Shown here piece by piece: positions 18,504 through 57,112 of a stretch of 64,000 bases of DNA (within the stretch, counting starts at the first letter, position 1; every line of letters begins with the position of its first letter). A program made the position numbers and the translations under genes. The DNA is from a virus, in IMG/VR virus record IMGVR_UViG_3300033153_006331, positions 1-64,000 of that record; one strand, written 5' to 3'. The notes under the pieces were generated by a model. That model made no database searches and was not told the origin of the DNA. It saw nothing but the letters and a program-made list of their open reading frames with translations.

Positions 18504-19249
18504 TGCGGAAGCTGGAGATAGTTCTACACTGTTACCGATATAGTCGCTGCCTGAGCTACCTGCTGTCGTCGCTGGAAATCAACCGGGCTCCGTCGGCACA
18601 GATCCAAGCGACGGTGTTCTGGAATTCAGACGATCGACCGACCTTGGACGTGCTCCGCTACTTCAACGAGCATGGCGAAATGGGGCGCTGGCCAAAGTAT
18701 CCGGGCGACCAGCCGGCACTGTACCTCCAGTCGCATGCCCTTGAACTTCCGCGACTGCTCCGGCGGGCGATAGGCCGGAACATGGCGGCATTGCGGACGA
18801 GAGCCGATCTTGTTTGGTTCTGCGACGGCGATTATGTCTTCGGTCCCAACTGCCTGGAAACTCTGGCGACAATGGACTTGCCGGAATCAAAGCTCTGGTA
18901 TCCCCGCGAGGTGATGATTTCCAAGACTCACGCTTTGGGTGACGCCGCGTCCCTGAAAGCGGCTGCCGGGCCGGGCATCTACCATATCAATCCGACTGAC
19001 TACATGCCGAGCAAACACAGAGCCATAGGCGGGTTACAGATTGTTCCCGGCGACGTGGCCAGAGAGTTCGGATATTGCCGCGCCACGAAATGGCAGAATC
19101 CGGTCAAGGACGGCAAGTGGGCGGACACCCGCGGCGACAAGACTTTCCGGAACATCTTGGGAACAAAGGGAACGCCGATTAGTTTGCCGCATTTGTATCG
19201 GATTCGGCAGAGTGTCGAGGGGGTGGTGGATACGTTGGAGTCTAGCTGA
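18503..19249 (+). CDS. Glycosyltransferase-like protein
   Basis: 248 residues from MRKLEIVLHCYRYSRCL, start in TGATG. ADLVWFCDGDYVFGPNCLE near 105-123 is a DxD motif following a hydrophobic strand, as in GT2/GT-A proteins. HRAIGGLQIVPGDVARE and TRGDKTFRN may be acceptor-site loops. It is the last gene of the coupled cassette; a pentamer array begins at its stop codon. Confidence 0.7.
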   Translation: MRKLEIVLHCYRYSRCLSYLLSSLEINRAPSAQIQATVFWNSDDRPTLDVLRYFNEHGEMGRWPKYPGDQPALYLQSHALELPRLLRRAIGRNMAALRTRADLVWFCDGDYVFGPNCLETLATMDLPESKLWYPREVMISKTHALGDAASLKAAAGPGIYHINPTDYMPSKHRAIGGLQIVPGDVAREFGYCRATKWQNPVKDGKWADTRGDKTFRNILGTKGTPISLPHLYRIRQSVEGVVDTLESS

Positions 19250-19341
19250 GCCAATCCGAGGCGAGGCTAACCGACACGATTCGATTCGGGACGAGGCGGT
19301 GCGAACCGGCCCGACTCGAGACAAGACAAGACGAAACGGCT
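19247..19341 (+). repeat. Pentamer array R1 (YGRNN x19)
   Basis: From the stop codon TGA of the upstream gene, 19 consecutive 5-nt units fit mostly C/T-G-A/G-N-N (CGAGG, CGATT, CGGGA, CGAAC...). The array ends with the shared tail CGAGACAAGACAAGACGAAA plus CGGCT and a run of seven T. No insertion breaks the 5-nt phase. Confidence 0.85.
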
Positions 19342-19384
19342 TTTTTTCGGAATTTTCAAGAAAAGTGGGAAATGGGGGCTTTCG

Positions 19385-19395
19385 TGTGGTATAAT
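19385..19395 (+). promoter_or_regulatory. Extended -10 promoter TGTGGTATAAT
   Basis: TGTGG directly precedes TATAAT (19390-19395). No -35 match is seen at 17 bases, as expected for an extended -10 promoter. The predicted start near 19402 lies six bases before array R2, so R2 would be the 5' leader of the gene at 19524. The same 11-mer occurs at 40568 and 53024 on the minus strand. Confidence 0.65.
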
Positions 19396-19407
19396 GTCTT
19401 GCTCAGA

Positions 19408-19483
19408 CGCAACGGAGACGGCGCGAGGCGGAACGCCCCGATTCGGCACGAACCGAATTGACCCAAGACAAGACGAAACGGCT
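19408..19483 (+). repeat. Pentamer array R2 (x15)
   Basis: Fifteen units in 5-nt phase with one extra base at 19418, e.g. CGCAA, CGAGG, CGATT, CGGCA, CGAAC, ending CAAGACAAGACGAAACGGCT. It begins at the predicted transcription start and is followed by a pyrimidine tract, then the ribosome-binding site of the next gene. Confidence 0.8.
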
Positions 19484-19523
19484 GTTTTTCTATTCCCCCT
19501 GAACTCCCGAAAGGAGTGATGCA

Positions 19524-20117
19524 ATGCGAACTGCGACGATCAAAGTAACGGCGATGACCCCCTACAGCCAGTCCAAGGCCCTGAAAGAGGAGAAGAAGCG
19601 GGCCGAGTCCTATGAGGCCTTCGAGACTCGGGTCTGGAAGGACCGGATGCACGTTGACAGCGACGGACACGTTTTCGTGCCGCCTGTATCCATCCTGAAC
19701 GGGATGGCCTGTGCCGCCGCCTATCTCTCCAAGGGCGGGGAGTTGAAGAAAAAGGGCAACGCAACGTGGTCCCAAAACTTCACTTGCGGCCTGTCGATCA
19801 GCGAAGGGCCGACTCTCCTGAACCGAGATGGCGTCCCGATGAGGGGCGAGGACGGCGATTCAGTCTGGGTGTATTGCCACGCGGACGGCAAGCGGTCTTC
19901 CGGCACGCGGGTCTGGCGGTGCTTCCCGGTCTTCGAGAAGTGGACGCTAGAGTTTGTCCTGACGATCCTGGACGACACGATTCCCGAAGAGGTGTTCAAC
20001 CGGGTGGTCGAGGCGTTCGGCTTGTTCAACGGCATCGGACGCTATCGGCCGCAGAACGGCGGATACTTGGGCCGCTTTGTGGTGGATTCAATAGAGATTT
20101 CAGACGTGGCGAAATGA
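19524..20117 (+). CDS. Conserved phage protein of unknown function
   Basis: 197 residues with AAAGGAG before the ATG. Blocks such as MTPYSQSKAL, DRMHVDSDGHVFVPP and GIGRYRPQNGGYLGRF recur, as I recall, in many phages and prophages, where they remain uncharacterised. The terminal glycine-rich strand resembles RAMP/ferredoxin-like nucleic-acid binders, but this is weak. It lies between pentamer arrays R2 and R3, and its last codons already follow the array phase. Confidence 0.65.
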   Translation: MRTATIKVTAMTPYSQSKALKEEKKRAESYEAFETRVWKDRMHVDSDGHVFVPPVSILNGMACAAAYLSKGGELKKKGNATWSQNFTCGLSISEGPTLLNRDGVPMRGEDGDSVWVYCHADGKRSSGTRVWRCFPVFEKWTLEFVLTILDDTIPEEVFNRVVEAFGLFNGIGRYRPQNGGYLGRFVVDSIEISDVAK

Positions 20118-20184
20118 CGCGATGCGAATTGAGCCGACCCGGAGCGAAGTGACTCGATGCGGCCAGAAATGAAACGAAACGGCT
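20105..20184 (+). repeat. Pentamer array R3 (x16)
   Basis: Sixteen units beginning two units before the stop codon of the upstream gene; the TGA is itself a unit (TGACG). The array CGATG CGAAT TGAGC CGACC CGGAG CGAAG is nearly duplicated in R4. It ends TGAAA CGAAA CGGCT then TTGCTATTATT. Confidence 0.8.
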
Positions 20185-20214
20185 TTGCTATTATTCGCGT
20201 CTTTGGAACGAAAG

Positions 20215-20279
20215 CGGAATGACGTGATACGATGCGAATTGAACCGACCCGGGGCGAAGTGAAACAAGACGAAACGCTT
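20215..20279 (+). repeat. Pentamer array R4 (x13)
   Basis: Thirteen units in phase, including TGATA, CGATG, CGAAT, TGAAC, CGACC, CGGGG, CGAAG and TGAAA, ending CAAGACGAAACGCTT. It contains in-frame TGA triplets, which argues against a coding role. The gene at 20308 follows, with AAAGGAG in between. Confidence 0.8.
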
Positions 20280-20307
20280 TCCACACTTTTCCAAAGGAGA
20301 CCCTATC

Positions 20308-20874
20308 GTGACTGAGGCACAACAGCCCGAACTAATCCAAGGCAAACACCGCCGCATACCCAGCGAGCCCAGCCCCGATGTATTCGTCATCGAAGGCGTA
20401 CTCCGGGACCTGAAGGGCGAGCAGGTTGCCACGAAAGACACCCTGGCCAAGGCCATCGGCCTGGACGCCGAGAAGGATTGGGAGATCGTATACCGCAGAA
20501 TCTCGGCCGCCGTCAAACGGCTCCAGAACCGGGAACACATCAACATCTGCGTTGTCCGGGGCGAAGGCTATATGAAAGAGCCCGCCCCTGCCACCGTGGC
20601 CAAACAGGACAGCGAGCGGAAATCCTGCCGACGCCGGGCCACAAAGAACGTCCAGCGGTTGATGAACGTCAAGACCGACGAACTGGACGAGAACGAGAAA
20701 TACAAGTTGAACGCCTCTCTGGCAATCAACATGGTCGCCAAAAAGGTGTTCTCACACGGGACCGGGCAGAAGATGATTGCGGCTGCCACGGTGAAGGACA
20801 CGAAGCGGCTGCCGATGGCGGATGCGCTGAAGATTTTGCAGGACAGGGAGGCGGCCAAAAAGGAATCGGGATGA
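20308..20874 (+). CDS. Hypothetical protein with possible winged-helix N-terminus
   Basis: 188 residues from a GTG with AAAGGAG at good spacing. Residues 25-90 (VFVIEGVLRDLKGEQ, TKDTLAKAIGLDAEKDWEIV, AVKRLQNREHINICVVRGEGY) have the helix-helix-wing order of a winged helix. The rest is basic and helical. It may bind DNA or RNA; being flanked by arrays R4 and R5 makes it a candidate partner for them, though this is only context. Confidence 0.6.
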   Translation: MTEAQQPELIQGKHRRIPSEPSPDVFVIEGVLRDLKGEQVATKDTLAKAIGLDAEKDWEIVYRRISAAVKRLQNREHINICVVRGEGYMKEPAPATVAKQDSERKSCRRRATKNVQRLMNVKTDELDENEKYKLNASLAINMVAKKVFSHGTGQKMIAAATVKDTKRLPMADALKILQDREAAKKESG

Positions 20875-20981
20875 AGCGAAGCGGCCCGACCCGGGGCGAT
20901 TCGAGGCGAAACGAAACGAAACGAGGCGGACCGAGCCGGGGCGAGACGGCCCGATTCGGCTCGAGACAAGACGAAACGGCT
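20867..20981 (+). repeat. Pentamer array R5 (x23)
   Basis: The longest unbroken plus-strand array: 23 units without a single phase slip, starting one unit before the stop codon TGA of the upstream gene. Units include CGAAG, CGGCC, CGACC, CGGGG, CGATT, CGAGG, CGAAA (three in a row), CGGAC, CGAGC. It ends CGAGACAAGACGAAACGGCT then TCCCTATCC. One frame stays open through it into the next gene. Confidence 0.85.
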
Positions 20982-25345: not shown

Positions 25346-27058
25346 TCACATGCACGAGCACTCTTCCTCTTCCACCCAGGTCATGCCGTAAATCTTGTGA
25401 ACCCCTACCCACTTCCAATGGATTTTGGTGTAGCAAACGATCACGCCTCCGCCGGCAATTGATTCGTCGCAGCATACATCCTGGACCAGTCGAGTCACCT
25501 TATCCCCGGAGGAAGACGATGACGATTCTGAACGACTCGGGCTTGACGAACTGCTTGACGACGAACTGTGGACCGTGGAACTTGACGAAGACGACGTACT
25601 GACCCCAGTCGAACTCGACGAACTCGATGTACTCCTCGACCAGCTACTGAATGAACTTAGGGATTCCGAGGAGAATGATGACGATGAAGGGAATCCGATA
25701 AATGACGTTTGGTGAAGTTGCTCGCGTAAACCAAAGTTCAGCGGAAGGGACCGCACCTTGGTCATCATCACGAAGTCGTCTTCTGCGACGCCTTCAATCT
25801 TCTCCTGATTGCGAACTCCTACTTCATAGAGGACGTAATCGTCGAATCCGTTGGGCGACCAGGCGACCAGCCCATTATAAGCGATCTCGTAATGGTTGCG
25901 GAGCCAAGCGTAGTAATCAGTTCCGATCAGGTTAGCCAGGTCGATCAATTCCTGGAGATTCCACGGATAACCTCCACCACCGACCCCATACATAGCGTAA
26001 CACGTATCGAAGAATACCTGTCGAGTGCCGGGCTGCGTCAAGCTGGTGCCGATTTGGGACCGATCCACCGAAGCGGTGACTGTAAACAGGTCTCCCGTGG
26101 GTGTCTGGAAGATGCCATCCAATATCGGATCAAGTACCATCTTGGGATAGGCTACGAGGACATTTTCCGGGACCAGATTGCGGCTCGGCTGACCTTCGCC
26201 CGTAAACCGCAGGATTTCCCGCGAAGCGTTCGCTGTAATCTGCTCCTCCAGAACGGCCCCGGCGGTGGCCGCAGTGCGTATTTCAAGTTTCAGGCTGGCA
26301 GGATCGAATGTGACCCGCATCCCAACACACGCTGCGACCGCATCCAATATCATCGCATAGTTTTCGTACCTCCGCGTAAGCTCCCTTGGATCGGGACTTA
26401 GATAGTCCCCCATGAAAGTCGAGGGAAATCCAGCATCGTGAAAATACTCAAAAACTAACGGGCGAACTTCCTCACGCACCTTTATCGGAATTCGCACCAG
26501 GTCCATGAGGTACTGTATCAGTGGCCCCCACCCATCATCAAAATTGGGCGGTCCAGGGTAGGTTGGCTCCATGTTCCCTGCATCGGTCCACTGCCACCAC
26601 CACCGATAATCCACCAACGGGAGAAGGAATATCGGATTGTCGCCGGACTCCGTTATCCGCCTGGGATCGAGCGCGAGCATCGTGAAACTGAGCGTGGTCT
26701 CGCCATCATCAATCTCGAGCGTGGCTTCACCATAGTCACTGGCCTCCACCACCTTGTCAATTTCGAGCAGGGTGTTCCAGTCGCACAGAAAGAGCCCTTG
26801 GGCCCATCTGCCCGCCCCCGTGGGAATATAGAGAGAATTCAGGCGAGGTCGCGGTGGGTCCGGGTAGTTGGGGACGGGCAACCCCACGCGAGCCACAGCA
26901 CCATCCTCGCCCCTGGCATCGTCCCGGCCTTCTACCCGATAGACCGGCTGGGCAAACGGATTGAAGTTCTCGTAATCCATGGCCCAATCGAGCCATGCGG
27001 CGAACTTCCCGCCGGGGTCCTCCATAAGCATCGATTGGCCGGCGAAGATGATCGACAT
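25346..27058 (-). CDS. Tail structural protein with poly-serine domain
   Basis: 570 residues from MSIIFAGQSMLMED; the ATG overlaps the upstream stop (TAATG). The first 450 residues are a mixed alpha/beta structural region, perhaps baseplate or tail-tip. A run of about 70 residues is largely serine (SSSSSSTGVSTSSSSSS and similar). A C-terminal Cys-rich piece (QDVCCDESIAGGG, EEEECSCM) follows. Serine codons mix TCN and AGY, so the tract is kept at protein level. It may be a glycosylation target. Confidence 0.65.
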   Translation of the reverse strand: MSIIFAGQSMLMEDPGGKFAAWLDWAMDYENFNPFAQPVYRVEGRDDARGEDGAVARVGLPVPNYPDPPRPRLNSLYIPTGAGRWAQGLFLCDWNTLLEIDKVVEASDYGEATLEIDDGETTLSFTMLALDPRRITESGDNPIFLLPLVDYRWWWQWTDAGNMEPTYPGPPNFDDGWGPLIQYLMDLVRIPIKVREEVRPLVFEYFHDAGFPSTFMGDYLSPDPRELTRRYENYAMILDAVAACVGMRVTFDPASLKLEIRTAATAGAVLEEQITANASREILRFTGEGQPSRNLVPENVLVAYPKMVLDPILDGIFQTPTGDLFTVTASVDRSQIGTSLTQPGTRQVFFDTCYAMYGVGGGGYPWNLQELIDLANLIGTDYYAWLRNHYEIAYNGLVAWSPNGFDDYVLYEVGVRNQEKIEGVAEDDFVMMTKVRSLPLNFGLREQLHQTSFIGFPSSSSFSSESLSSFSSWSRSTSSSSSSTGVSTSSSSSSTVHSSSSSSSSSPSRSESSSSSSGDKVTRLVQDVCCDESIAGGGVIVCYTKIHWKWVGVHKIYGMTWVEEEECSCM

Positions 27059-27645
27059 TACTTCACTCGGAGAACGGCGGCTGCTGTGCCCAATTGAATT
27101 GATTTCGAGTGCCACGGCTCGCAAAAGTCAACTTTGGACCGATCCGTAAGGTCCTTGTCCGTCCAACTATACTTCTGTGGCTCCGATCTCCAATCATGTC
27201 CGATCACAATACTGCCCGGACAACACAGGGGAGCCAGTTCCATAATCTCCCGCGGCTTGTCACCGCCATCACAGAGAATGAATCCTGGGCCGGCGAAGCC
27301 GATTCTCTTGACCGTTGCAATCGCTTCATCGGAAAACTCGTCAGCCTTCAGCACTCCGCCATCTACCCGGCGGACAACCTCCAGATTCCTTTCCCGGTTG
27401 TAGACAGGCGGTTCATAGTCTCCATTGAAATCATCTATCCCGAGGTAGGGGATTCCTTTGCAAAAGGCCAAGGTAGCAAAGTATGCCGACGAGGCACCGC
27501 AGCCGATTCCTATTTCAATAATCCACTCCGTCCAATGCTGGTGGATGATTTGTTCGTAGAACCACAGGGCAACGTGCGTTTGCTGAATGCTATCTCCATA
27601 GAGCCGCCTGCACCGCTTCTGGTAGAGCCATCGATTGTTCGCCAT
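27058..27645 (-). CDS. Class I methyltransferase / CmcI-like protein in tail module
   Basis: 195 residues. IIEIGIGCGASSAYFATL is a SAM-binding loop, YLGIDDFNGDY the acidic ribose contact, GFILCDGGDKPREI and CCPGSIVIGHDW later core motifs of the Methyltransf_24/cephalosporin hydroxylase-like group. It overlaps the start of the poly-serine tail gene, so it may act on it or on its glycan. Confidence 0.75.
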   Translation of the reverse strand: MANNRWLYQKRCRRLYGDSIQQTHVALWFYEQIIHQHWTEWIIEIGIGCGASSAYFATLAFCKGIPYLGIDDFNGDYEPPVYNRERNLEVVRRVDGGVLKADEFSDEAIATVKRIGFAGPGFILCDGGDKPREIMELAPLCCPGSIVIGHDWRSEPQKYSWTDKDLTDRSKVDFCEPWHSKSIQLGTAAAVLRVK

Positions 27646-40543: not shown

Positions 40544-40567
40544 TGGTCTGGAAGCCAACTGGCAGCC

Positions 40568-40578
40568 ATTATACCACA
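40568..40578 (-). promoter_or_regulatory. Extended -10 promoter TGTGGTATAAT
   Basis: Minus-strand TGTGG-TATAAT-GG, the same 11-mer as at 19385 and 53024. The predicted start (about 40561) lies just before element E2 and the 86-residue gene. Confidence 0.6.
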
Positions 40579-48623: not shown

Positions 48624-50678
48624 CTATCGCCTTCCCCTTTCGAGTTGAGGCCCCGCCCCACGCCCACCACTCCGCAGGTCCATTGGAATCGACTTCCGTT
48701 GTTGGTCCCATTGCCGATGACTCATCTTCGTTGGGATCAATCCCTTGGAAATCTCGTGGGTGTGAAGAAGGTAGCGCAAACTATCGACCGCATCATCTGC
48801 CAGCTTCAACGGCACGGGAGCCGCTACCTGCGGATTCAATATGCTCCCGCCCGATACCAGCGATTTCTTTCCCCGCTTCCACCGATACTTTCGCATTTCC
48901 TCGACCAAATGCACGCACCGCTCGTGAATGACCAACTTCGGCTTCCCGTTGGTCTGGAGCTTCAGTAGCGTTCGTACCGTGTCAATCCCCTTGTAGACGT
49001 CATTGGCAGCAGCAGAAACAGGTATGCCGCGATTGCCAAATTCGTTAATCTCGCCAGGTCGGCTTGGGTCGGCGTAGGTGTCCCGATAAACGTCCCGCTG
49101 TTTCGGCACCCAGACCGGGCCGATCTTGCTCTCCTGTTCGCGCTCGCCTTCACCGAGCCAATGCCCCGGCCACCCCCATGCCTGCGATTTTTCCACAATG
49201 GCCACAACATGGTCGAGCGTAATTCTAGCTTGAGAGTCACTCCAATACTCCTCGTAAACGTACCAGTCCCCAATCGCATCAACATAGGCCCAAATGCACA
49301 CGAATGGATGCTCGGCCGAGGCACCCCAGTCCACGCCCCGATAATGCCGCACGCCGACGGGGAACCGAGTTTCGCCCCGAACAACATGAATCGCCGGATT
49401 GAACGTCGGGTAGATCACCCCCTCGAATGTAGCCAACGCCCCAGTCCGCCGCGTCTCCTGCATTTCGTCCGGCACGGCCCCGAAGAAGCTGTCAAACCAG
49501 CCGTCCGCCAAGTTCACCCGGTTGCAATCCGTGTTCGCCCGGTAGAACCCCCAGTCCTTCGGCGGATCGTCCATGACCTTCTCGAGATGGTAGCACAACT
49601 CCGGGTCGATGGGAGTGAATTCGCACATCTGGCCGCCACGAAACATGTAGTCCCGGCAGCCCCGGAGAGTCTCGACAAACAACTGCCACGGAAACTGCTC
49701 GGAAAACCAGAAGCCACCGATCGACTTGGCATGGAAGGCCGTCCGGCCCTGCTCGTAACTCTTGAATTCCAGCATCCACGAGTTGCGGCCGTTGCCGCCC
49801 TTGCGGTCCCGTGGCCATGGCTTCAAGTGGATGGCAAACGGCCAACCGTCCTTCTCTCGAAACCATCGGGTCCGCTTCCAGTCCACCTCGATGCTCGGGA
49901 TATGCCCGTTGCCCAAAAGCTTCTCCAGCCAGCAGATACCGCAGCACTGGTCGTACGTGCTGGTGATGACCCAGAATGGCGTGTCAGGCCGCGGTGGCGG
50001 CTGGTCGAGGAGCAGAAACTTGGCGACCTTGAAAGCAGAGGCTTCGGTCGTGCCGGAGTTATGGTGGATTACGCCACCCATTTCATAGTTACGCCACTTC
50101 TTTACCGTAAAATCCCAAATGCCGTCTTTCTCGGCTCTCCTGATTTTGGACTGAATGCCCGGCAACGCTTTCCCCTTTGCATCAATTGATGCAAGACAAT
50201 CCCCAACCGATAAGTCAGCAAGGCAACGCCACTTGCGGTCAGAGCAAAGCAATCTGTGTGCTCCAGCAGCCGCAAAGGTCCAACCCGTAGACAATACCAC
50301 ATCCCAAAGCCAATCAACCCGCTTGAAGAACGGCCTGCTTGCTACGCCGAGTTGGCGATTCCCATCCGCATCAACTGACCAAACATGAAATGGGCCTAAG
50401 ATTTGATCGACCCGACTAAACGAGCGTTTCACCGGATCGAAAACTCTGCTGTCTCCAGCGATACAGGCGTTGCCTCCTACGAGAAATGCCACCAAGTCTT
50501 TCGAGTAGCAGAATCCCGCCTGCTGGTCGAATAGTTCCGGCCGGTCCGGCCGCGGGATGAACGTGGAGTACGCTGATTCGTCGAGGAGCTGGAGATACTC
50601 TTGAAGATCGGGCGAGCCCTGGACTTCCGCCACGGCATCCTCAAGCATGTCGGGCGGTAGTTGGTCAAGGATGCCCAT
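48624..50678 (-). CDS. terL: Terminase large subunit with mini-intein
   Basis: 684 residues from MGILDQLPPDML. The ATPase begins FLVGGNA, is interrupted by an intein, and continues SGTTEASAFKVAKFLL, so splicing restores the Walker A loop. FWFSEQ resembles the Walker B/acidic site. VGVRHYRGVDWGASAEHPF and LADDAVDSLRYLL hold aspartates of the RNase H-like nuclease. TerL cuts and pumps DNA through the portal. The gene is followed by a methyltransferase remnant rather than by the portal, which lies about 6 kb downstream. Confidence 0.85.
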   Translation of the reverse strand: MGILDQLPPDMLEDAVAEVQGSPDLQEYLQLLDESAYSTFIPRPDRPELFDQQAGFCYSKDLVAFLVGGNACIAGDSRVFDPVKRSFSRVDQILGPFHVWSVDADGNRQLGVASRPFFKRVDWLWDVVLSTGWTFAAAGAHRLLCSDRKWRCLADLSVGDCLASIDAKGKALPGIQSKIRRAEKDGIWDFTVKKWRNYEMGGVIHHNSGTTEASAFKVAKFLLLDQPPPRPDTPFWVITSTYDQCCGICWLEKLLGNGHIPSIEVDWKRTRWFREKDGWPFAIHLKPWPRDRKGGNGRNSWMLEFKSYEQGRTAFHAKSIGGFWFSEQFPWQLFVETLRGCRDYMFRGGQMCEFTPIDPELCYHLEKVMDDPPKDWGFYRANTDCNRVNLADGWFDSFFGAVPDEMQETRRTGALATFEGVIYPTFNPAIHVVRGETRFPVGVRHYRGVDWGASAEHPFVCIWAYVDAIGDWYVYEEYWSDSQARITLDHVVAIVEKSQAWGWPGHWLGEGEREQESKIGPVWVPKQRDVYRDTYADPSRPGEINEFGNRGIPVSAAANDVYKGIDTVRTLLKLQTNGKPKLVIHERCVHLVEEMRKYRWKRGKKSLVSGGSILNPQVAAPVPLKLADDAVDSLRYLLHTHEISKGLIPTKMSHRQWDQQRKSIPMDLRSGGRGAGPQLERGRR
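50058..50465 (-). other. Mini-intein inside terL Walker A motif
   Basis: 136 residues in frame. Block A is CIAGDSRVFD; block B GAHRLLCSD carries the histidine; block F DGIWDFTVKKWRNYEMGG; block G VIHHN followed by Ser. No homing endonuclease domain is present. Cys1, the penultimate His and Asn, and Ser+1 are all intact, so splicing looks possible. Confidence 0.85.
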
Positions 50679-51357
50679 CGTCGCTGCCATCCTCAAGCTC
50701 ATAGAACTGACGCAATAACTCGGCAGTTTCTTTGAGCCCGTCAATCACCTTCTGCTTACGCAACTCATCCTCTGCGTCAATGCAACAATCTTCCGTCCGC
50801 TCGGTCCGCAATCGTTCCAATTCACGCTCTGCGTCTTCTGCCCGCACATACATTCCAGAGTGACAACAACAGAGATTTCCACTACAGGAATGCAGCTCCA
50901 TCCTGCCGCTTGCCAAATAGTATATGTCCATTCGATGGCCTTCGTTTTGCCCCAGGGGCCGCGGGGCCTCCTCTCTCTTCCCCACGGCAGCCAAGGCCGC
51001 TTGGCAGATGGCCAGCGGGGCACTCTTTATAAAGCTACTGTGGCCAACACACTTCTGCTTTCGGAAAACCGTACCCTGCCAACAACGATTCCAATCCTGC
51101 ATAGGGATCAATCTCAATTCCAGATCCCACAACTTTTCTATCACCTCCCATGCGTCAGCGATATTGAGGTCTGGCCGCCAGCAGTTGCTACGGGCAGTAT
51201 AAACATTGACCGTCCCATCAGGGAATTGACCAACATAGGGGCGGTTGCCCCAGTCATCACCCTGGCCATGGCGTTCGTATTGCGGCCATTTCATCACCTC
51301 GCGGGCAATCCTCGCGGCAAACTCTGGGCTGGCCTGCATTTGATTTGCGTCTGTCAC
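50665..51357 (-). CDS. Phage ABA sandwich domain protein
   Basis: 230 residues from a GTG that overlaps the upstream stop (GTGA). YVGQFPDGTVNVYT, NIADAWEVIEKLWDLEL and APLAICQAALAAVGKREE match the phage ABA sandwich pattern. A second half has cysteines (SCSGNLCCCHSGMYV) and a coiled coil. It overlaps terL. Confidence 0.6.
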   Translation of the reverse strand: MTDANQMQASPEFAARIAREVMKWPQYERHGQGDDWGNRPYVGQFPDGTVNVYTARSNCWRPDLNIADAWEVIEKLWDLELRLIPMQDWNRCWQGTVFRKQKCVGHSSFIKSAPLAICQAALAAVGKREEAPRPLGQNEGHRMDIYYLASGRMELHSCSGNLCCCHSGMYVRAEDAERELERLRTERTEDCCIDAEDELRKQKVIDGLKETAELLRQFYELEDGSDDGHP

Positions 51358-52763: not shown

Positions 52764-52863
52764 AGCCGTTTCGTCTTGTCTCATGCCGCTTCGCTTCGTG
52801 CCGCTTCAAATCGGGCCGTTTCGCCTCGTGCCGCTTCGCGCCGTCTCGGGTCGTCTCGCTTTC
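52764..52863 (-). repeat. Pentamer array R6 (x20)
   Basis: On the minus strand 20 units such as CGAGA, CGACC, CGGCG, CGAAG, CGGCA, CGAGG, ending TGAGACAAGACGAAACGGCT, then GTATCAG and the ATG of the gene at 52756. Strict 5-nt phase. Confidence 0.8.
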
Positions 52864-52883: not shown

Positions 52884-53013
52884 AGCCGTTTCGTCTTGTC
52901 TCGTGCCAAATCAGTTCTCTTCGCCTCGAGTCGGCTCGTTCCGACTCGTTCCGTCTCGGCTCGCGCCGCCTCGCCCCGTCTCGAGCCGGATCGTTCCGGT
53001 TCGGCTCATCTTG
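52884..53013 (-). repeat. Pentamer array R7 (x26)
   Basis: The longest array: 26 minus-strand units from CAAGA TGAGC CGAAC CGGAA to CGAGACAAGACGAAACGGCT, then TTGCCATTATC. It begins about four bases after the predicted start of the promoter at 53024. Confidence 0.8.
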
Positions 53014-53023
53014 CCCGCCCGCC

Positions 53024-53034
53024 ATTATACCACA
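53024..53034 (-). promoter_or_regulatory. Extended -10 promoter TGTGGTATAAT
   Basis: Minus-strand TGTGG-TATAAT-GG. No -35 was seen. The start near 53017 makes arrays R7 and R6 the 5' leader (about 260 nt) of the gene at 52756. Same arrangement as the promoter at 19385 with R2. Confidence 0.65.
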
Positions 53035-55225: not shown

Positions 55226-57112
55226 TCACACCGCCAATATGGTTCCGGAGTACGGGCCGATGGAACTGATTTCCCCGTCCAGGGCCCCGATCGAAACGAG
55301 AACACCAGCGGATGATCCCAGCGTGCCGATCGTGCCAACAGCCACACCATAGCGTTCCGAGGATGACGACAATGAGGAGCCTGACTCGCCCGTCGAACTG
55401 GACGAGGACGAGGAAAGGGTTGACAGGCTCGACGGCGACGTAGACGACGACGAGAGCGACGAGCGGCTTGTCGATGGGCTCGACGACGTTGACATAGACG
55501 AGATGCTGATCGACGAACTTGACGACGACGACACAGACGGCGAGCTTGACGACGAGCTGCTTGACGTGCTCATCAGCGTGCTGGAAGAACTCGACGAACT
55601 GCTGGGCGTTGACGACGAGGACGAGGAGGCCGTTGACCTGCTTGACGATGACGCGGTGCTGAGCAACGTCGAACTTGACGATGATGCGGTGCTCAATAAC
55701 GTCGAACTACTTGACGAACTGTGTACCGTAGAACTTGATGAGGAACGAGTAATCGAGGATACGCTGGTCGATGACCCCGACGTAGACGAGGGGGAGGATA
55801 CGCTAGTTGACGAACTCGATGATGATGTGATTCCCAAGCTGCTTGACGACGAAGTAGACGGCTCTTCGCCAGATATGCCCAGGCTAGTTGAGGAACTGGA
55901 AGAGGACGTAATCCCGAGCGAACTGGACGAGCTTGACGATGAAGTTATGCCAAGACTGGACGAAGAACTTGAAGAGGACGACGTGAGGCCCAGGCTGCTT
56001 GACGAACTCGATGATGACGTAATCCCCAAGCTGCTTGAACTCGAGGAACTTGATGTAATCCCAAGCGAACTTGAACTCGAGGACGAGGTAAGGCCGAGGC
56101 TACTCGACGAACTCGACGATGAAGTTATGTCAAGACTAGACGAAGAGCTTGAAGATGATGTAATTCCCAATGAGCTTGAGGATGAACTGGACGACGTAAT
56201 CCCTAAACTGCTAGACGAACTTGACGATGACGTTATGCCAAGCGAACTGGAGGAGGAAGAACTTGAAAGCGATTCGCCGGAGAACCCCAAGCTGCTCGAC
56301 GAACTTGATGATGACGTCAGCCCCAGGCTGCTCGACGAACTCGATGATGACGACTCCTCCTCCGCCACTCCCGCCGCGAACACCCGCCCCCTCAGCCTGA
56401 ACAAGGCGTGGGGATCGACGTAGAGTTGCTGGATTTCGTTGGGGGCAAGGGCTCGCGAATACAAGAAATACGATCCTATCCTCCCTGCATATTCTACCGC
56501 CCCATGCTGCCAGGGCTGCCCGATCTCTAACCCGGCAGACGGTGTCATGTCCCCGTGCGTGATGACGCCCGTTTTTTCCAACCTGCCTTGGACATAACCG
56601 CTCAGCGTACTGCCTTGTTTCGTCCAAACCAGACAATCCCACTTGCCTGCCCCACTTACAGGCACCTGGCTGTTTGCTGCGTCACCGTTGATCGGATATA
56701 GGCCGCCATAGACGTTATAGAAACCATTTTGGAAACCTATAACCACAGCAAATTCATCTTTGCCACCAAAATCACTTATATAGCCTATATCAGTTGTACT
56801 GTTCGGTGCCAGCCATATTACAATAGACAAATCACCCGGCAATGCTGGAGTTGACATTCCCGAGACATAATCAAGTGTCCCATCAAAATCCAACGCCCAA
56901 CCTTTTTCACTCATCACCCAATCTGTAGCTGGGTCCATGTTGGTCAGCGTGCCATGATTCCCGAACCCGGACTGATCCCGCAACGTCGCCCCGGTAACGC
57001 CCAGCGTCGGAGCCCACGCACCCACGAGCCCGTTCCACAATCCGGGATTAGCGGACTCGGCCGCGTTGCGGGCAAATCCCTGCGCGTAGGATGGGAGCCA
57101 GAGGCTACTCAT
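55226..57112 (-). CDS. LamG-domain adhesin-like protein with very long serine repeat
   Basis: 628 residues. Residues 1-240 form a concanavalin/LamG lectin fold (LVGAWAPTLGVTGATLRDQS; ALDFDGTLDYV; DLSIVIWLAP; EYAGRIGSYFLYSRALAPNE). Residues 250-590 are nearly all serine with repeats SSSSSSSSLGITSSSSS in about 14-residue periods. The C-terminus is a short Gly/Ile domain. A receptor-binding tail fibre with a glycosylatable stalk is the best guess. Confidence 0.65.
   Translation of the reverse strand: MSSLWLPSYAQGFARNAAESANPGLWNGLVGAWAPTLGVTGATLRDQSGFGNHGTLTNMDPATDWVMSEKGWALDFDGTLDYVSGMSTPALPGDLSIVIWLAPNSTTDIGYISDFGGKDEFAVVIGFQNGFYNVYGGLYPINGDAANSQVPVSGAGKWDCLVWTKQGSTLSGYVQGRLEKTGVITHGDMTPSAGLEIGQPWQHGAVEYAGRIGSYFLYSRALAPNEIQQLYVDPHALFRLRGRVFAAGVAEEESSSSSSSSSLGLTSSSSSSSSLGFSGESLSSSSSSSSLGITSSSSSSSSLGITSSSSSSSSLGITSSSSSSSSLDITSSSSSSSSLGLTSSSSSSSLGITSSSSSSSSLGITSSSSSSSSLGLTSSSSSSSSSLGITSSSSSSSSLGITSSSSSSTSLGISGEEPSTSSSSSLGITSSSSSSTSVSSPSSTSGSSTSVSSITRSSSSSTVHSSSSSSTLLSTASSSSSTLLSTASSSSRSTASSSSSSTPSSSSSSSSTLMSTSSSSSSSSPSVSSSSSSSISISSMSTSSSPSTSRSSLSSSSTSPSSLSTLSSSSSSSTGESGSSLSSSSERYGVAVGTIGTLGSSAGVLVSIGALDGEISSIGPYSGTILAV

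Follow-up and report, generated by a model that had tools for sequence, protein, structure and literature searches.

VIPR (Viral Interference Programmable Repeat) was reported between April and June 2026 as a possible ancestor of CRISPR which uses a gapped DNA-reading code (PMC13142463; bioRxiv 2026.04.26.720920). According to the main text of the preprint, phages encode an ancestral RAMP, called Vipr, together with the accessory gene vap and with vrRNAs. Each vrRNA has 9-16 pentamers, made of a GGY triplet and a hypervariable dinucleotide NN in alternation, and is capped by a constant 3' tail (PMC13142463). In the SUSP1 system the dinucleotides pair with double-stranded DNA, one target base is skipped between pairs, no PAM is needed, and the complex silences transcription; natural VIPR targets are satellites and prophages (PMC13142463). 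Seven types are distinguished there, with the repeat given as GGY/NN 'or a related consensus', and the published relatives of Vipr bind the RNA transcribed from their arrays (PMC13142463).

Here we analysed 64,000 bases (the window) out of the 70,284-base record of an uncultivated virus. An initial annotation, made from the letters alone, had noticed pentamer arrays and knew of no described phage element like them; with the preprint of 2026 this no longer holds (PMC13142463). The locus is with high confidence a VIPR system of a phage with a YGR/NN variant of the repeat, in which the arrays R1-R7 are predicted guide RNA genes. The YGR scaffold variant is absent from the main text of the VIPR preprint (PMC13142463).

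Pentamer arrays and their common 3' end

The window contains seven YGRNN arrays, R1-R5 at 19,247-20,981 on the plus strand and R6 and R7 at 53,008-52,764 on the minus strand (Table 1). The five arrays of the initial annotation were all present at their positions; the two on the minus strand had been missed. Counted in phase, backwards from the common 3' end, R1-R7 have 19, 13, 15, 12, 23, 25 and 19 units. This equals the earlier figures for R1 and R5 and is close to those for R2-R4, which had been given as 15, 16 and 13. The arrays are located on the coding strand in intergenic gaps. Several start at the stop codon of the preceding gene, and a gene start follows directly 3' of R2, R4, R5 and R7. 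R3 and R4 have near-identical dinucleotide series, i.e. putative guides, with a one-unit indel.

Table 1. Arrays, promoter elements and genes of the locus in the 64,000-base window.
Feature	Position	Strand	Description
vrRNA array R1	19247..19341	+	19 YGRNN units including the shared 3' tail; start = stop codon of upstream gene
vrRNA array R2	19419..19483	+	13 units; 3' tail CAAGACGAAACGGCT
vrRNA array R3	20110..20184	+	15 units; overlaps the vipr stop codon
vrRNA array R4	20215..20274	+	12 units; tail end CAAGACGAAACGC
vrRNA array R5	20867..20981	+	23 units
vrRNA array R6	52884..53008	-	25 units; about 33 kb from vipr
vrRNA array R7	52764..52858	-	19 units
Extended -10 promoter TGTGGTATAATG	19385..19396	+	just upstream of R2; consensus only
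Extended -10 promoter TGTGGTATAATG	53023..53034	-	just upstream of R6; 12-mer identical to that of R2; consensus only
vipr	19524..20117	+	197-aa predicted RAMP (Cas7-like) protein; homologous to SUSP1 Vipr (PDB 36pp) and phrog_4652
vap (vipr-accessory)	20308..20874	+	188 aa; predicted winged-helix element order and basic helices; homologue of SUSP1-type vap

The entropy of the pentamer positions 1-5 was 0.64, 0.16, 0.95, 1.95 and 1.96 bits, calculated from 98 units (all seven arrays minus the last four units of each). Therefore, the triplet is nearly fixed and the following two bases are maximally free, as the initial annotation had it. Position 1 was C in 84/98 units and position 3 was A in 68 and G in 29; G at position 2 in 96 of the 98 units identified the triplets as YGR. 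The 5-nt phase, earlier described as strict, holds save for a few units which are out of pattern (CTAAC, CGCCC, AGAAA, AGAAC). In a scan phase by phase, the best 12-unit windows on the plus strand, at 19.2-21.0 kb, had YGR in 11, 9, 11 and 12 of 12 units. In 20 simulated sequences (second-order Markov, trinucleotide make-up preserved) the maximum per 12-unit window was 7 on the plus and 8 on the minus strand, i.e. the real arrays were never approached. The repeat is real.

The arrays are neither coding sequence nor a CRISPR array, which agrees with the first reading. The repeat structure in the region consists of period-5 arrays only; the CRISPR pattern of unique spacers between identical repeats, each about 20-40 nt long, was absent. 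An Rfam search of the window and of eight array loci returned no relevant family and no hammerhead at gathering score.

Two features had been overlooked initially. All seven arrays share a near-invariant 3' end, CAAGACGAAACGGCT or a near variant of it. A search of viral contigs for the exact tail 16-mer yielded three array-less loci, which were taken as chance. The other feature is the identical TGTGGTATAATG upstream of R2 and R6. A third exact copy is present at 40567-40578 (-), where the gene that follows is an ordinary one of 86 aa; for TGNTATAAT, 5 copies compare with 0.46 expected. The copy in front of an ordinary small gene ruled out an array-specific role. Because of this copy and the excess of TGNTATAAT, the element is probably a general promoter of the phage, as judged from its sequence.

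Elsewhere in the window two proteins with long serine-rich repeats (SSSSSSSSLGIT...) are encoded (55226-57112 and 25346-27124, -); no tRNA gene was found in the phage which carries them. A terminase-like protein (48624-50744, -) matches known phage terminase large subunits only C-terminally (residues ~374-687), and its N-terminal stretch 'GGNACIAGDSRVFDP...VIHHNSGTTE' looks like an intein insertion.

Vipr, Vap and the relation to described systems

The vipr gene is positioned between R2 and R3. In a blastp comparison of all ORFs the 197-aa Vipr was the one real protein common to the window and all four nearest records (G001, G003, G007 and G002). These records are otherwise unrelated to the window, and in each the Vipr homologue adjoins arrays. 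A profile built from five Vipr sequences was compared with the PDB. It matched 36pp, 'SUSP1 Vipr protein', with E=4.6e-14 and all other PDB entries with E>0.3. Matches to phrog_4652, a phage family of unknown function, had E-values from 1e-7 to 1e-27. No meaningful match to Vipr or Vap was obtained from Pfam, NCBIfam or PADLOC, and a close relative of Vipr was not found in plasmids.

The AlphaFold model of Vipr had a pLDDT of 81. The 50 Foldseek matches listed were all CRISPR class 1 effector chains, mostly Cas7/Csm3 RAMPs, with a best E of 1.2e-6; among these Csm3, type VII Cas7 and Cas7-11 prevailed. The model thus predicts a Cas7-like RAMP fold for the window Vipr.

The vap gene begins after R4, and homologues are located beside vipr in G001, G003, G007, L046, L070 and L010. 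By hhalign the window-type vap profile matched a profile of SUSP1-type vap (wV8, LESphi2 and MakoManhole) with E=1.6e-7 and a probability of 94. In the Vap model the elements are ordered as in a winged helix. Its structure matches to DNA-binding domains were weak but consistent (best E=0.04), and Vap is predicted to be a DNA-binding protein.

Closest to the locus is type II VIPR, represented by Escherichia phage SUSP1 and a Pseudomonas fulva prophage. Both have a single small RAMP, encoded by the phage, and the two proteins are sequence homologues. Beside it lies a vap gene, and that of the window is a homologue of the vap of SUSP1-type phages. In both, several non-coding arrays consist of pentamers whose triplet is fixed and whose dinucleotide is free. 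The 3' end is likewise constant, and near-identical in the seven window arrays. The differences are that the triplet is YGR, mostly CGA, in the window, whereas it is GGY in the published text; that R5 and R6 have 23 and 25 units compared with 9-16 published (the window range of 12-25 includes 3-5 tail units); that two arrays are 33 kb away from vipr; and that the window Vipr belongs to a separate, well-supported clade. Thus Vipr, vap, the triplet followed by NN and the constant 3' end of VIPR are all present, and GGY is not. Vipr and vap homology, the triplet with its free dinucleotide and the constant tail together identify the locus as a VIPR system. Because the main text of the preprint allows for 'a related consensus', the non-GGY triplet narrows the claim to a variant and does not exclude membership (PMC13142463).

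Class 1 CRISPR-Cas is more distant. Its Cas7/Csm3 RAMPs resemble the window Vipr in predicted fold and, presumably, in periodic binding of a guide RNA. However, the window has a single RAMP, no repeat-spacer array was seen, and the guide would be gapped instead of contiguous with a step of 5 compared with 6 nt.

Scaffold alphabets in related viruses

Beyond the window, a pattern scan of 2.9 million viral contigs retrieved 85 loci with nine exact CGRNN units. Most were simple pentamer repeats. A minority were further arrays whose dinucleotides are free, with as many as 43 CGANN units and with ends such as CGAAACGAGACGAAACG. Vipr was encoded at 8/19 loci with diverse units vs 2/66 with repetitive units (Fisher p=5e-5), the loci having been retrieved by array pattern alone. 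As a positive control, GGY/NN arrays were found to flank the Vipr genes of Felixounavirus wV8, Pseudomonas phage LESphi2, the Gordonia phages MakoManhole and Trine, and Mycobacterium phage LittleE. In GTDB contigs a scan for CGANN arrays yielded 18 loci, nearly all of them runs of repeated units typical of microsatellites, and Vipr was absent from the five genomes tested among them.

Read on the vipr-sense strand, the scaffold is GGY in the known phages and some planctomycete genomes, CGA or a looser YGR in the window, G001, G002, G003, G007 and G004/G005, and CGC in L046 (14 arrays), L070, L082 and L010. The central G is kept in all three and, whatever the scaffold, the last units of an array tend to have NN = AA. 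A tree of 22 Vipr proteins grouped the window with three CGA viruses and the four CGC viruses in a single clade (100/98), to which the GGY proteins do not belong; two further CGA viruses were on the GGY side, where branches are long and unsure. Because the CGA/CGC proteins form a clade and two CGA viruses nonetheless stand on the GGY side, the scaffold tracks Vipr phylogeny in part. Judged from the tree, it may have changed more than once.

Tentatively, and with slightly less than even confidence, we propose that at least three VIPR scaffold alphabets exist (GGY, YGR/CGA and CGC, with a common central G) which largely follow Vipr phylogeny. The lineages would then have mutually incompatible RNA-reading codes, and the phage would represent a new VIPR type with an RNA scaffold orthogonal to the published one.

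Some related loci have peculiarities of their own. In L046 (852-3980, -) 14 CGC/NN arrays surround vipr and vap. They are separated by a recurring unit which translates like 'PARGAGTSDR', a conserved spacer and possibly a structured tail. L118 (5458-6181, -) has six CGA/NN arrays with conserved hairpin-like spacers (cgtaacccg...cgggctgg..attcgcaat..) without Rfam match. The sister phages L114 (8676-8780, -) and L039 (4770-4854, -) have the same flanks, with ~90% identity across 400 aligned bases beside the array. The arrays between these flanks differ in their dinucleotides, as would result from a block-wise exchange of the guide.

Proposed guide RNAs, alternative readings and target searches

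How might the locus operate? From the published SUSP1 system we take over that small RNAs are expressed, that they assemble into an RNP, that one target base is skipped between pairs and that transcription is silenced. By this analogy R1-R7 would encode seven small guide RNAs (vrRNAs, ~60-125 nt); for two of these an extended -10 promoter stands immediately upstream. Vipr subunits would polymerise along each vrRNA with a 5-nt step, one subunit per pentamer, each gripping a YGR triplet and presenting the following two bases. As a series, the dinucleotides would act as a gapped guide which pairs with double-stranded DNA and is read NNxNNx, i.e. one target base is skipped. With the help of Vap, a predicted DNA-binding protein, the complex would keep a competing phage, satellite or prophage from being transcribed, and RNA-guided silencing of competing elements is the likely function. 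Initially, the triplet had been regarded as the part which is read; the free dinucleotides are probably the information and the YGR triplets a scaffold only.

TRAP, the trp RNA-binding attenuation protein, is an 11-subunit ring which binds (G/U)AG triplets, and TRAP leaders, to which the arrays were likened initially, have triplets with two-base spacing in RNA. Are the arrays RNA leaders through which a TRAP-like ring regulates the genes downstream, by recognising YGR triplets spaced two bases apart? The 5-nt step and the triplet-plus-spacer geometry would suit such leaders, as would the positions of R2 and R6 right behind a promoter and of R2, R4, R5 and R7 right before a gene start. Yet the triplet is YGR and not NAG, the conserved neighbour is a Vipr-related RAMP and not a TRAP-like ring, and variable arrays of 12-25 units do not match a ring of fixed size. 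Guide RNA genes better explain why arrays come in pairs, one of them remote, and why they share a 3' tail. We consider TRAP-like leaders very improbable, although the analogy was right about the geometry. From the earlier proposal a triplet-reading protein with a 5-nt step survives, which fits the predicted RAMP fold and the RNA-binding published relatives; regulation in the manner of TRAP found no support.

Even less probable, by a small step, are two readings in which no guide RNA is involved. One takes R1-R7 as functionless, decayed pentanucleotide microsatellites. In its favour, pentamer microsatellites of the CGA type are common, and simple repeats made up most matches in the viral contigs and nearly all in the genomes scanned. 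Decay, however, should strike all five positions alike, and the entropy is 0.16 bits at position 2 against 1.95 at positions 4-5; moreover, arrays of this pattern travel with vipr, share a fixed tail and differ in their dinucleotides in different viruses. Similarly remote is a role as DNA elements, either iterons or a loading site for a protein which coats single- or double-stranded DNA with a 5-nt step. A RAMP could in principle bind DNA and Vap is a predicted DNA-binding protein; against this stand the location on the coding strand in gene gaps, the common 3' tail, the start at a promoter in two cases, and the published relatives, which are transcribed and RNA-bound according to the main text of the preprint (PMC13142463). 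Guide RNA genes of a VIPR system are our preferred reading, in view of array structure, shared tail, Vipr and Vap homology, the RAMP fold prediction and the co-occurrence of arrays and vipr in unrelated viruses.

For the guides of the window we searched for targets. In IMG/VR the exact nine-unit NNx pattern of R1 had no match, the exact eight-unit pattern of R6 had five, none of which extend, and among the matches listed for the seven-unit patterns of R5 and R7 no extension was clearly beyond that of permuted guides. In 384 genomes, i.e. the phylum of one planctomycete genome, with 3 mismatches allowed, R5 had one match vs two control matches and R1 one vs none. Thus, no target emerged for R1, R5, R6 and R7 from exact partial patterns in IMG/VR, nor for R1 and R5 in the 384 genomes. 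Likewise, 64 related guides tested with skips of 0-3 against ~3.5 Mb showed no excess of 1-nt-skip matches. The guide of L114 (8676-8780) matched its sister phage L039 (5053-5115, -) at 21/22 positions over the 11 tail-proximal units with skip 1. This score was reached in 0/3000 permutations in L039 but in 6/5624 over all loci and was not significant once corrected for all the guides tested. Because of the latter figure and of ~30 guides tested, the match is only suggestive.

The locus extends VIPR to uncultivated viruses in which Vipr is recognised by no named Pfam, NCBIfam or PADLOC family. The supposedly 'fixed' part of the code varies across the VIPR family: YGR or CGC can take the place of GGY, with the central G and the step of 5 nt unchanged. 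This variety makes the rule of protein-RNA recognition testable by comparison and offers natural, possibly orthogonal scaffolds for programmable repressors.
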